A stretch of 9,043 bases of DNA from Candidatus Zhuqueibacterota bacterium (GTDB lineage: Bacteria; SM23-31), in assembly GCA_022562855.1 (NCBI GenBank), contig JADFON010000047.1, forward strand, positions 1 through 9,043, in the 5' to 3' direction. This document shows, one piece after another, positions 4,975 through 8,288 of the stretch. Made by a program: the position numbers and the translations under genes. The notes under the pieces are model-generated. The model had not been told where the DNA came from. It did no database searches and was given only the letters and a program-made list of their open reading frames with translations. The number at the start of each line of letters is the position of its first letter. The stretch's first letter is position 1.

Positions 4975-5003
4975 AATATTAGAGAGCGTTGCATAATTAT
5001 CAA
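4975..5003 (-). promoter_or_regulatory. candidate hybrid promoter at the MITE edge, reading into the DUF4097-like gene
   Basis: Minus strand: TTGATA (4998-5003, inside the element) with TAATAT or AATATT (4975-4981) 16-17 bases downstream, spanning the element's left boundary. The start of transcription would be about 20 bases before the ATG at 4947. Confidence 0.35.
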
Positions 5004-5133
5004 AAACGCTGATTTTTGTTGATTTTTATGTAGATTCCGGCTCGGAGGCCGGAATGACAAGCACGAAACCGTCTTGCTGAACTTGTTTCAGCATCTAAAT
5101 TCAAATCGTAAAACAGTTTTGCAACGCTCTCTA
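4980..5133. mobile_element. MITE-like element, 154 bp, TA-flanked
   Basis: Perfect 14-bp inverted ends: tagagagcgttgca at 4980-4993 and its complement at 5120-5133. The outermost TA on each side can be read as a TA target duplication around 12-bp inverted repeats, the pattern of IS630/Tc1-mariner-type elements. Inside lie two hairpins: attccggc/gccggaat (5034-5041 with 5048-5055, followed by gaca, a very common dispersed repeat form) and tgctgaa/ttcagca (5075-5081 with 5087-5093). It has no coding capacity, so it would depend on a transposase elsewhere. Confidence 0.7.
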
Positions 5134-5156: not shown

Positions 5157-5229
5157 TTGACCGGGCAATAGTGAAAAAAGGATAAATATTCACTTTTTTC
5201 TTGATAATTGATTTTTATAATCGTATATT
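5157..5229 (+). promoter_or_regulatory. promoter and candidate operator of the rrf2 operon
   Basis: Best promoter: TTGATA (5201-5206), exact 17-base spacer, TATATT (5224-5229), with the start near 5236 and the ribosome site at 5257-5263. An alternative is TTGACC (5157-5162) with GATAAA (5181-5186), 18 apart. A 23-bp interrupted dyad, GTGAA...TTCAC (5171-5193), extended by one A/T pair, abuts the first promoter and covers the -10 of the second. Its 11-1-11 size equals that of known NsrR/IscR sites, so autoregulation by the adjacent Rrf2 protein is plausible. An overlapping gaaaaaag/cttttttc pairing (5173-5180, 5193-5200) also exists. Confidence 0.5.
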
Positions 5230-5272
5230 AGCATGTGAATATGTTATTATAGAAATTAGGAGACATAAAATT

Positions 5273-5683
5273 ATGTTAAATAAATCCACCATTTATATTT
5301 TGAGGTCTCTTGCCCATATAGCGGCGCTTCCGGGGGATGGGATCAAGGGCGCTCGCGAGATAGCGAATGATCTTTCCATACCGGCAAATTATCTTGGAAA
5401 AATGCTGCAAATCCTGGCAAAGAAGGGTTTTCTCTATTCACAGAAAGGATTGGGCGGCGGATTCGGTCTGGCACGACCTGCCGAAGAAATTACGATGCTC
5501 GAAATTATTGAAGCGGTCGGGGAAGAGGAATTTTTGTCAGGGTGTTTCTGGGGAAAGGAACTTATGTGCACCGATGAAGCAGGATGCGTCCTGCACAGCA
5601 GGTGGAAATGTATCGTGCAGGAAACAAGAAATATTTTTGAAACGACGACTATACGGGATTTAACCACGGGAATATTGCCGTGA
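5273..5683 (+). CDS. Rrf2-family transcriptional regulator, probably Fe-S sensing
   Basis: Winged-helix regulator of the Rrf2/IscR/NsrR family, 136 residues, the typical size. The ATG at 5273 is chosen over an upstream TTG at 5201 because TAGGAGA lies nine bases before it and the family N-terminus (MLNKSTIYILRSLAHIA) begins exactly there. The helix-turn-helix and wing are at about 26-70: GAREIANDLSIPANYLGKML, then KGFLYSQKGLGGGFGLARP. The cluster-ligand region holds Cys91, Cys99, Cys105 (C-x7-C-x5-C) and a further Cys113. NsrR and IscR use three cysteines with shorter first spacing. The gene leads the operon and overlaps the next gene by four bases, so it probably senses NO, redox state or cluster status and controls the genes that follow. 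Confident as to family, less so as to the signal. Confidence 0.9.
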   Translation: MLNKSTIYILRSLAHIAALPGDGIKGAREIANDLSIPANYLGKMLQILAKKGFLYSQKGLGGGFGLARPAEEITMLEIIEAVGEEEFLSGCFWGKELMCTDEAGCVLHSRWKCIVQETRNIFETTTIRDLTTGILP

Positions 5684-6795
5684 ATACCGATAATTTACTG
5701 ATGGACATAGAAAATTCGACTGCCGCCGTCGATACGGAACCTGCACCCGTAATCAGCAAACCTGAAATCAATAAAGAACATCTGAAAAAAGACGAGTGGC
5801 TGAAAGTCAGGTTCTGGACACAGACCGGGTTCTTTGTGCTGACTCTGTACATTGGGTGGGAATTTGTAGTATTTGTCAATAAAATGGCAATGGGTGCGCC
5901 CGCAGATATATCGCAAAGACCTCCCGGTATCGAGGGGTTTCTCCCGATCAGCTCTATGATGGAATTATGGTTATGGGTAAAGACCGGTCTGGCGCCCGCC
6001 ATCCATCCTGCGGGCGTCGTGATATTTGCATTTGCGATAGGGACTGCGCTGTTAATAAAACGGGGTTTTTGCTCCTGGTTTTGTCCTGTCGGTTATATCT
6101 CCGAATTGCTGAGCCGGATTGGGGTAAAGATGCATGTTAGTATAAAACCATGGAAATGGATAGATTATCCCCTGAGATCGCTGAAGTATATCATAATGGC
6201 GTTTTTTGTTTACGCGATATTGTTGATGCCGCTCAATGCGCTCTACCTGTTTATTACCGGTGATTATAACCTGGTATCGGATGTGAAAATGTTGAATTTG
6301 TTTTCCTTCGATGACAGGATGACCTGGTCGGTTTTTGGAATACTTGCCCTGCTGACCTTGCTTATAAAGAACTTCTGGTGCAGGTATCTTTGTCCGTATG
6401 GCGCGTTATTGGGGATTTTTTCGATGGCAAGTCCTGTGGCTATCCGGAGAAACGCATCCACCTGTATTGACTGCGGGCTATGCGATAAGGCATGCCCCTC
6501 ATTTTTGCCCGTCGCCACAAAGAATTCGATCAAATCCGCCGAATGTCTTGCCTGCCAGCAGTGCACCGCGGTCTGCCCGGTGGTCGATTGTCTGCAACTC
6601 TCAACACCAAAGAAAAGATTAGTGCTCAAACCCTCTCTATATGCGATGCTATTTGCCGGTTTATTCTTTGGCAGTGTTGTGGTAGCGAAAATTGCGGGAT
6701 ACTGGCAGACGACAACCGATGTGGAAACGTACAGGGAATTGACTATTAAATCTGAATCATTGAGTCACCCGAGAGATTTGAAAGGATACAAATAA
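5680..6795 (+). CDS. NapH/NosR-like membrane 4Fe-4S polyferredoxin
   Basis: Integral membrane electron-transfer protein, 371 residues. The soluble N-terminal 45 residues are followed by about five or six transmembrane helices (roughly 46-66, 111-127, 168-190, 217-232, 240-252, 320-340). It has both NapH-type CX3CP motifs at membrane edges (CSWFCP 131-136, CRYLCP 234-239) and two [4Fe-4S] ferredoxin motifs (Cys262/265/268/272-Pro and Cys289/292/295/299-Pro). It lacks the FMN domain of NosR and the C-terminal domain of CcoG, so NapH is the nearest type. Such proteins pass electrons from quinol or cytoplasmic donors across or along the membrane. The GTG at 5680 overlaps the rrf2 stop (GTGA) with GGGA nine bases upstream; ATG 5701 is an alternative without a ribosome site. 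Context suggests it feeds electrons to an NO- or O2-reacting partner. Confidence 0.88.
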   Translation: MNTDNLLMDIENSTAAVDTEPAPVISKPEINKEHLKKDEWLKVRFWTQTGFFVLTLYIGWEFVVFVNKMAMGAPADISQRPPGIEGFLPISSMMELWLWVKTGLAPAIHPAGVVIFAFAIGTALLIKRGFCSWFCPVGYISELLSRIGVKMHVSIKPWKWIDYPLRSLKYIIMAFFVYAILLMPLNALYLFITGDYNLVSDVKMLNLFSFDDRMTWSVFGILALLTLLIKNFWCRYLCPYGALLGIFSMASPVAIRRNASTCIDCGLCDKACPSFLPVATKNSIKSAECLACQQCTAVCPVVDCLQLSTPKKRLVLKPSLYAMLFAGLFFGSVVVAKIAGYWQTTTDVETYRELTIKSESLSHPRDLKGYK

Positions 6796-6796
6796 T

Positions 6797-7336
6797 ATGA
6801 AAGCAATAGAAACGCTTATGGGCGAACACCAAGTGATCTTAAAAGTGCTGAACAGTTTGGAGGACTGTATCGATGATAGAGATACGGCAAAACTGAAAGA
6901 ACATCTCCCGGATTATGTTACTTTCATACAGGGATTTGCCGACAAACTTCATCACGGCAAGGAGGAAGTTATATTATTTAAGGAAATGGGGAATTACGGT
7001 TTTCCTGCTGATTCCGGTCCCGTAATGGTCATGCTGCATGAGCACGACCTCGGAAGAGGACTGGTTAAGACAATCAAGGAAATGAGTGTGAAAGACCGTT
7101 GGGATGATGATGATCTGCGAACGGTGAAGGAGGCGGGAACAAAGTATATTACATTACTGCGCCAGCATATTAATAAAGAAGACACGATACTTTTTCCAAT
7201 GGCGAAAGCCTCGCTTCCGGAGGCTTCATTGACGGCAATAGACGATGAGTTCGATTTATACGGAAACGACAGCGCTAATTCGGAAAGAAGACGTGAGCTG
7301 GAAGCGTTGGCGGAGGTTTTGGTGGGTATGAAATAA
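6797..7336 (+). CDS. hemerythrin domain protein
   Basis: Cytosolic four-helix-bundle protein of 179 residues with a hemerythrin HHE cation-binding domain carrying a di-iron site. Likely ligands are His11 (MGEHQ), His53 and Glu57 in LHHGKEEVILF, His83 in MLHEHD, and His124 with Glu128 in RQHINKEDTILFPMA. These follow the H...HxxxE...H...HxxxE order also seen in Ric proteins. The start at 6797 is one base after the polyferredoxin stop, with AAAGGA about 11 bases upstream, so the two are translated from one message. Stand-alone hemerythrins of this group bind O2 or NO or take part in iron and redox handling. It has no DUF542 domain, so it is not itself a Ric protein. The acidic patch DDDD near 103-106 and the C-terminal ERRRELEAL helix are unremarkable. 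Confidence 0.9.
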   Translation: MKAIETLMGEHQVILKVLNSLEDCIDDRDTAKLKEHLPDYVTFIQGFADKLHHGKEEVILFKEMGNYGFPADSGPVMVMLHEHDLGRGLVKTIKEMSVKDRWDDDDLRTVKEAGTKYITLLRQHINKEDTILFPMAKASLPEASLTAIDDEFDLYGNDSANSERRRELEALAEVLVGMK

Positions 7337-7436
7337 TTTACCTAATTTACAATAAAAACATCAGGAAGTATTTTCGTGGATGTGCACCAGCTGTACAGGT
7401 TTTCAGCCACAAATTTTGAGAAAGGAGAAGTGAATC

Positions 7437-8159
7437 ATGAATACGTTTAAAACTACCGATACTGTGGGAGGCGTTGTGACGCAACGTCCGGCTCTTTCGC
7501 GCTTGTTTGAGAAGGAGAGCATTGACTACTGCTGCGGGGGCAAAAAGACCTTGGAGGAGGTTTGCCGGGAGAAAGGGATCGATCTTACAACCTTTATCGC
7601 CACGTTGAAGGAAGCCGGAAATGAAGAAATGGTCGACACGGCAGCAATGTCCTTATCGGAGCTGGCTGACCACATTGAGCAGACGCACCATGCCTACCTG
7701 CGATCCGAGTTCCCGCGTTTGGACGAGATTACGGAGAAGGTAGCGTCAGTCCACGGGAAAACAGACTCGCGTCTTTACCGGGTAAGAGACACCTTCCAAG
7801 CGCTGGCTGAGGAACTCCTCAGTCACATGATGAAGGAGGAACGTATTCTCTTCCCGATGGTGCGGCAGTTGGAGGGCAGTAACGAGGCGCCCTTGTTCCA
7901 TTGCGGGACGCTCGCCACTATCATCGGGCAGATGGAAAAAGAGCATGGCCAGGCAGGGTCGGCATTGGAGAGCCTTCGGGAACTGACGGATGGTTTTACG
8001 CCACCCGAATGGGCTTGCAATACGTATCGCGTCTTGCTGGATACCCTGGACAATCTCGAGCGTGACCTGCACAAGCACATCCATAAGGAGAACAACGTGC
8101 TGTTCCCACGGGCGTTGGAGATGGAGGAGCGCAAAGGCGCGGCTCGCGACCGGAATTAG
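7437..8159 (+). CDS. ric: iron-sulfur cluster repair di-iron protein (Ric/ScdA/YtfE)
   Basis: Cytosolic protein that helps restore Fe-S clusters after NO or oxidative damage. It has 240 residues, close to the usual 220-240. The N-terminal DUF542/ScdA_N domain (about 5-60) holds the paired Cys32-Cys33 in SIDYCCGGKKTLEEVC. The hemerythrin-like domain has His84, His130 and Glu134 (SHMMKEERILFP), His170 (EKEHGQAG), and His214 with Glu218 (HIHKENNVLFPRA), the full di-iron ligand set. AAAGGAG nine bases before the ATG is a strong ribosome site. It lies 100 bases after the hemerythrin gene. Its G+C is clearly higher than that of neighbours (35 of 60 bases at 7681-7740, against 24 of 60 at 6841-6900), which suggests recent transfer. 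Ric genes are commonly under NO-sensing control, which fits the operon. Confidence 0.95.
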   Translation: MNTFKTTDTVGGVVTQRPALSRLFEKESIDYCCGGKKTLEEVCREKGIDLTTFIATLKEAGNEEMVDTAAMSLSELADHIEQTHHAYLRSEFPRLDEITEKVASVHGKTDSRLYRVRDTFQALAEELLSHMMKEERILFPMVRQLEGSNEAPLFHCGTLATIIGQMEKEHGQAGSALESLRELTDGFTPPEWACNTYRVLLDTLDNLERDLHKHIHKENNVLFPRALEMEERKGAARDRN

Positions 8160-8161
8160 AT

Positions 8162-8269
8162 ATCGTGGTGCGCAGGCTGAACGATAAGGATTGGAAAGGA
8201 AAGGCTTACGCCATTGTCTCTCCGGGAAACGATCTGTATAACAACAAAGCCGGAATTATTCTGAAATAA
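8162..8269 (+). pseudogene. orphan C-terminal reading tail after ric
   Basis: In a different frame from ric, an open stretch begins at the ric stop and ends at TAA 8267-8269. It reads VVRRLNDKDWKGKAYAIV and then SPGNDLYNNKAGIILK. It is a protein-like composition with lower G+C than ric and ends in the terminator stem. Two GTG codons (8165, 8168) could start a 33-34-residue peptide but no ribosome site precedes them. I read it as the leftover end of a gene whose front was lost when ric arrived; the family is unknown. Confidence 0.35.
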
Positions 8270-8288
8270 TTCCGGCTTTTTGTTTTTT
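8246..8288 (+). terminator. strong intrinsic terminator after ric
   Basis: Perfect 15-bp stem (8246-8260 with 8265-8279), a four-base loop ctga, and a tail of T (tttttgtttttt). It ends the rrf2-to-ric transcript. The stem overlaps the last codons and stop of the orphan tail. Confidence 0.93.

Follow-up and report, generated by a model that had tools for sequence, protein, structure and literature searches.

A 9,043-nucleotide stretch of DNA from a draft genome of Candidatus Zhuqueibacterota (assembly GCA_022562855.1, contig JADFON010000047.1; hereafter the window, contig C53 of that genome) carries four contiguous genes that probably form one operon. They encode an Rrf2-family regulator, a YccM-family membrane polyferredoxin, a hemerythrin (HHE) protein and the iron-sulfur (Fe-S) cluster repair protein Ric. 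We consider it likely that this operon answers nitric oxide (NO)/Fe-S damage. The fuller reading, a nitrosative-stress operon in which quinol electrons supplied by YccM keep HHE and Ric ferrous, is about evenly balanced between right and wrong, and a role of YccM as the direct reductant of HHE or Ric is possible but doubtful.

All four open reading frames (ORFs) lie on the forward strand and were verified by ORF listing and family profiles, confirming the gene set that an earlier note on this DNA had placed at 5171-8159 (Table 1). The tight packing described there was also borne out: the polyferredoxin gene has a GTG start and shares 4 nt (GTGA) with the stop of rrf2, in line with the coupling to the regulator noted there, and a single base separates the end of the polyferredoxin gene (6795) from the HHE ORF (6797). 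The operon assignment is based on this contiguity, a promoter-like sequence ahead and a strong terminator behind, and a single transcript across the four genes is likely on these signals. No forward-strand terminator matches were found between the four genes; the polyferredoxin gene itself contains two, both weak. The start of rrf2 was moved from a TTG too far upstream in the listed ORF to the ATG at 5273, because the Pfam match begins at residue 2 of this form.

Several inverted repeats precede rrf2. One of them (AGTGAA-N13-TTCACT) covers the module start given in the earlier note. Another, a candidate operator (TATTAGCATGTGAATA), overlaps the -10 box, and palindromes resembling it occupy the same position before rrf2 in genomes G148 and G285. 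The form proposed as a shared operator in these two genomes and the window's own (G000), TAWTNRCATGTKAWTA, gave hits in four genomes with no clear excess over a reversed control and is retained as a weak candidate; two further exact copies in the window's genome lie between converging gene ends (contig C193) and at a contig start (C286). These palindromes differ from the 11-1-11 repeat of NsrR type (AAGATGCATTT), which was not among the upstream inverted repeats found; no pattern search was aimed at it. By its three cysteines, the regulator is of the predicted Fe-S type of Rrf2, with a C-X7-C-X5-C pattern where relatives mostly have C-X6-C-X5-C.

The polyferredoxin was previously described as NapH-like, a label that fails in the strict sense, with scores far below the NapH cut-offs (TIGR02163, 78.6 versus 213.05; PRK09477, 76.4 versus 234). 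It is instead classified as a YccM relative: Escherichia coli YccM aligns with it nearly end to end (37% identity over 347 residues, E = 4e-83), a relation that rests on this alignment and a quick tree, no curated YccM model being among the matches. NapH, the quinol dehydrogenase subunit of periplasmic nitrate reductase, likewise has membrane spans, CxxxCP motifs and a ferredoxin domain, whereas the window protein adds an RPPGxEGFLP loop and a C-terminal His, and no nap genes lie near its locus. It carries two CxxxCP motifs and two [4Fe-4S] motifs, which E. coli YccM shares along with the loop, and probably spans the membrane five times. More than 50 columns are invariant in a nine-member alignment, among them P, E and G of the RPPGxEGFLP-type loop, CxxxCP and the Fe-S residues. 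Across 98 relatives and the window protein, conservation is highest at this loop, at the motifs HP, FCxWxCPxG, KY, DxKM and NFWCRYLCPYG, at R44, Q48 and W342, at the eight cluster cysteines and at the C-terminal His, exactly where E. coli YccM ends. The structure was predicted with a predicted local distance difference test score (pLDDT) of 88.9, and neither sequence search nor Foldseek matched the membrane core to a solved structure. The Fe-S domain would be cytosolic and the C-terminal tail on the opposite side, a topology predicted from the order of the membrane helices and the usual NapH-type arrangement.

In the literature searched, no assigned function was found for E. coli YccM. A review terms it a homologue of CcoG without the Ig-like domain (PMC7558416); CcoG is the copper reductase that serves cbb3 oxidase assembly. 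YccM might accordingly be a membrane metal reductase acting on Fe(III) (or Cu(II)) and furnishing Fe(II) for clusters, with no direct action on the di-iron proteins but still within an NO/Fe-S repair unit. CcoG promotes copper tolerance by providing Cu(I) (PMC7558416), the CxxxCP pair and C-terminal His, predicted on the far membrane side, could form a metal site, and a Ric review presents Ric as donating iron (PMC9268430). We regard this alternative as unlikely: the informative contexts of YccM-type genes consist of N-oxide and NO genes, and the loci read showed no evident gene for a copper chaperone or ATPase next to these, although no systematic search for such genes was made. The window protein is shorter than CcoG, and cbb3 oxidase genes are absent from the window.

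The two downstream products are distinct di-iron proteins. Putative ligands of the HHE protein (H11, H52, E56, H83, H124 and E128) are kept in 21 of 21 aligned sequences, and its model (pLDDT 92.6) matches the hemerythrin folds 3cax (Z = 16.4) and 6q09 (Z = 13.6), although a helical-bundle match by itself shows no function. The 6q09 protein, of mycobacterial origin, is given as a homologue of Rv2633c, and a near relative, the Mycobacterium kansasii protein, is reported to be a nitric oxide peroxidase (PMC8913304), which speaks for a reactive small hemerythrin. The possibility that the HHE protein is itself a Ric was rejected (TIGR03652, 23.3 versus a cut-off of 204.7 bits). The fourth gene, judged by sequence, is certainly a bona fide Ric; both the ScdA_N (PF04405) and hemerythrin (PF01814) domains match, and the solved relatives YtfE and ScdA were recovered (E = 1e-34 and 3e-31, respectively).

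Independent NO links exist for relatives of all four gene types, which supports the NO/Fe-S stress module suggested in the earlier note. In E. coli CFT073, the NO-sensing Rrf2 repressor NsrR binds the yccM promoter at an 11-1-11 site according to chromatin immunoprecipitation (ChIP) sequencing, alongside the promoters of ytfE, hmp and hcp, and earlier ChIP-chip work cited there found the K-12 yccM promoter bound too; in the parts of that study used here, the data concern promoter binding rather than yccM expression (PMC5320621). In Desulfuromonas, yccM ("polyferredoxin") has a predicted site for HcpR (PMC545781), and predictions assign hemerythrin-like and dnrN genes to HcpR regulons (PMC1274295). 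The HcpR regulon of delta-proteobacteria resembles the window in its yccM, hemerythrin-like and dnrN members and differs in its CRP/FNR-type regulator, where the window has Rrf2. The NsrR regulon of E. coli (NsrR, ytfE, yccM, hmp and hcp-hcr) likewise has an Rrf2-family regulator, Ric and YccM in common with the window, which differs in combining them in one operon, in its separate HHE protein and in a regulator that is not NsrR by model score. The genes of the NsrR regulon are scattered in the E. coli genome, where yccM adjoins tor genes. The kind of NO regulon and the tie of YccM to NsrR and HcpR were already known, and the new element would be the arrangement of yccM, HHE, ric and rrf2 as a probable operon. 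Our literature search found no paper joining Rrf2, polyferredoxin and hemerythrin with NO.

Some gene neighbourhoods of relatives contain genes for NO and nitrite chemistry. For example, Pelobacter propionicus pPRO1 has the order nrfH-(insertion sequence)-nrfA-yccM-HPP-hcp-PAS-ric-flavorubredoxin-DUF6448-ferredoxin. This is also a same-strand NO/nitrite cluster with a YccM-type protein and Ric; it lacks Rrf2 and HHE, adds NrfHA, Hcp and flavorubredoxin, and is interrupted by the insertion sequence. Genome G299 carries yccM-DUF6448-ric-HHE on one strand, its HHE being 42% identical to that of the window. Other loci include nrfA-nrfH-rrf2-yccM-ferredoxin-methyltransferase-two multihaem cytochromes-HHE (L090, Bacteroidota), HHE-?-rrf2-yccM-methyltransferase-ric (L038), yccM preceded by an HHE gene at a distance of 29 bases (L015, Acidobacteria), and a frame-broken ric with yccM and a larger HHE-containing protein (L064). 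In L032 and L054, rrf2-yccM clusters are followed by norB, and a hemerythrin-like gene stands directly after yccM in L032. In three genomes distant from one another, members of the window's HHE subfamily adjoin genes for NO reductase: G148 (rrf2-HHE-norB), G325 (HHE by norB, where a DUF1858/DUF438/HHE/PAS protein and a ferredoxin are also encoded) and Desulfosarcina ovata (norR-norB-HHE).

These HHE neighbourhoods also bear on a role in an O2 or microaerobic response, in which the hemerythrin would store or scavenge O2 and Ric would mend O2-damaged clusters. Some Rrf2 regulators sense Fe-S cluster loss generally, which would suit such a role. Hemerythrin-like proteins of Myxococcus have been connected with oxygen use (PMC12753109). 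Against an O2 role, HHE relatives adjoin NO reductase or NorR genes, two of them carry a DUF2249-like extension (judged by eye), a domain linked to denitrification (PMC11218638), and yccM elsewhere is NsrR-bound or predicted to be under HcpR. An O2 response is thus distinctly improbable.

To place these loci on a quantitative footing, we took 80 loci, that is, contigs picked by similarity to the window YccM, and counted those with a hemerythrin-like gene no more than 6 kb from the yccM-type gene. Such linkage was found in 9 of the 80, where 0.63 was expected from the gene density in YccM-carrying genomes (Poisson P = 3e-8, an optimistic value, given the relatedness of the loci and the use of two different hemerythrin models), and the two genes share a strand in 8 of the 9. 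The linkage of polyferredoxin with hemerythrin that the earlier note proposed surveying recurs across phyla above chance. In a quick tree made of 101 YccM-type proteins, 11 rows bear the linkage label (including Pelobacter with ric and excluding L082, where the gene is on the other strand). The label needs nine changes, at least eight of them by well-supported branches; therefore, linkage was gained or lost many times. An rrf2 gene lies directly upstream of yccM, or one gene off, in about 20 of the 80 loci, mostly from Ignavibacteria and Bacteroidota. Co-occurrence was assessed in an even sample of 386 genomes of relatives, 31 of which carry a YccM-type gene, with P values that are uncorrected and blind to phylogeny: HHE with NorB in six genomes (1.05 expected, P = 2e-4), Ric with NorB in seven (1.8 expected, P = 7e-4), YccM with HHE in five (1.9 expected, P = 0.03) and YccM with Ric in seven (3.0 expected, P = 0.02). 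Recurrence of the gene set as a whole was mixed: sub-sets recur, whereas the exact rrf2-yccM-HHE-ric quartet appeared nowhere else in the sets searched. That absence, and the lack of half the quartet in a genome of the same family (G004), would suit a chance neighbourhood, in which an Rrf2 regulator of general Fe-S/iron type happens to adjoin redox genes that have nothing to do with it. The excess of linked loci, the repeated label changes on the tree, and the contiguous, overlapping genes with a single terminator make this very improbable. Two long polyferredoxin frames (763 amino acids in L134 and 710 in L131) were rejected as evidence of partnership; the extension has no extra Pfam domain, and the frames are probably over-long.

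Other features of these neighbourhoods were observed. A secreted-looking DUF6448 protein is encoded next to ric, HHE or flavorubredoxin genes in four distant genomes, G299, P. propionicus, G314 and G281, and is a candidate new NO-stress protein. Genes for one family of S-adenosylmethionine-dependent methyltransferases come within one or two genes after rrf2-yccM in Ignavibacteria and Bacteroidota. YccM-type genes also occupy housekeeping sites: in Acidobacteria their neighbours are mnmG-like on one side and rsmG-like on the other, and in delta-proteobacteria purA-like and tatB/tatC-like, respectively (gene names assigned by eye from sequence).

For the window operon, we propose that, by analogy with NsrR, the Rrf2 protein would carry an Fe-S cluster and repress its own operon, and that damage to this cluster by NO, or by loss of iron or Fe-S, would turn the operon on. 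YccM would draw electrons from the membrane quinol pool and pass them through CxxxCP and its two [4Fe-4S] sites to the cytosolic side, where they may hold the soluble di-iron proteins HHE and Ric ferrous. In this state, both could bind or turn over NO/nitrite and release Fe(II) with which damaged clusters would be rebuilt. That YccM donates electrons to the di-iron proteins is plausible. More broadly, the YccM family might be dedicated to reducing the di-iron stress proteins of the cytosol (HHE and Ric) with quinol electrons, serving membrane-fed NO/nitrite consumption and Fe(II) release from E. coli to uncultured phyla; this extension, which builds on the link of both YccM and YtfE to NsrR in E. 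coli, is speculative and unlikely.

Several results weigh against the proposed operon function. The regulator scores 37.9 bits against an NsrR (PRK11014) cut-off of 182, with SUF-regulator, RirA and IscR models scoring slightly higher than NsrR and all below their cut-offs; its X7/X5 cysteine spacing and the lack of genome-wide excess of the operator-like motif over the reversed control pattern also count here. In the even sample, a hemerythrin gene lies within 3 kb in 1 of 30 other YccM carriers, namely G299. The reading in the earlier note, with the hemerythrin reducing NO or O2 by electrons from the polyferredoxin, did not gain support: E. coli Ric has negligible NO reductase activity and reduces nitrite slowly, according to passages of the Ric review (PMC9268430). 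In the host phylum, represented by six genomes, the nearest genome with the gene is G004, of the same family; it keeps rrf2-yccM, at 50 and 55% identity, with an efflux-type gene next in line. No match to Ric or to HHE of the window subfamily was found in G004 (76% complete), which has HHE genes of other kinds elsewhere; therefore, YccM cannot depend on HHE/Ric. Finally, no NorB or Hcp match was found in the window's own genome (2.5 Mb in 491 contigs, 80% complete).

The last result also argues against a different acceptor, in which YccM electrons would pass to a soluble ferredoxin feeding Hcp, flavorubredoxin or nitrite/NO reducers, HHE and Ric being merely co-regulated. Ferredoxin-like genes follow yccM in L043, L052, L077 and L090, the pPRO1 cluster has a ferredoxin with hcp and flavorubredoxin, and most YccM-type genes have no hemerythrin neighbour. 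Since the two di-iron proteins are the only soluble redox neighbours in the window, we think such an acceptor improbable here. If YccM instead feeds HHE and Ric, its linkage proposes an electron source for Ric and small hemerythrins; the Ric review passages name no physiological electron donor of Ric (PMC9268430). Together with NsrR binding or predicted HcpR control, the link of YccM to hemerythrin and ric genes gives it a testable role in NO recovery.

Table 1. Features of the window and of related loci (L, locus; G000, the window's own genome; aa, amino acids).
Feature	Position	Strand	Remarks
Inverted repeat AGTGAA-N13-TTCACT, upstream of promoter	5170..5194	.	Possible regulator site; once in window
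Promoter-like TTGATA-17-TATATT	5201..5229	+	10/12 consensus matches; count of promoter matches in region not above shuffled sequence
Candidate Rrf2 operator TATTAGCATGTGAATA, overlapping -10 box	5226..5241	.	Weak
Rrf2-family regulator, 136 aa, C-X7-C-X5-C	5273..5683	+	Pfam Rrf2 97.5 bits, cut-off 30
YccM-family membrane polyferredoxin, 371 aa, GTG start	5680..6795	+	Family profiles, YccM alignment
Hemerythrin HHE protein, 179 aa	6797..7336	+	PF01814 70.2 bits, cut-off 25.3
Ric (YtfE/ScdA/DnrN) di-iron Fe-S cluster repair protein, 240 aa	7437..8159	+	TIGR03652 249.8 bits, cut-off 204.7
Intrinsic terminator after ric	8246..8279	+	15-bp stem, T-rich tail
DUF6448 genes	L127 8282-8923; L245 11978-12613; L186 from 812; L241 4737-5450
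rrf2-yccM-methyltransferase loci	L025, L027, L032, L038, L043, L052, L054, L061, L063, L067, L077, L079, L086, L090
YccM-type genes in housekeeping neighbourhoods	L030 5959-7107; L071 4222-5349; L045 6013-7017; L056; L066
REP-type tyrosine transposase gene	174-641
ORF, 385 aa	2930-4087
Element of about 150 bases	4980-5133
Octahaem c-type cytochrome gene	G000:C190 2407-3630 (L234)		PF13447, HAO-like

Elsewhere in the window, the 385-amino-acid ORF had no match in Pfam, NCBIfam or PHROGs, and a transposase gene lies near the start. The short element between a DUF4097 gene and rrf2 has 17-base terminal inverted repeats (TAGAGAGCGTTGCA...), with partial copies on other contigs of the same genome. 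That genome also encodes an octahaem c-type cytochrome, close to where a probable Fe-S protein gene ends, for which nitrite or hydroxylamine chemistry is possible.

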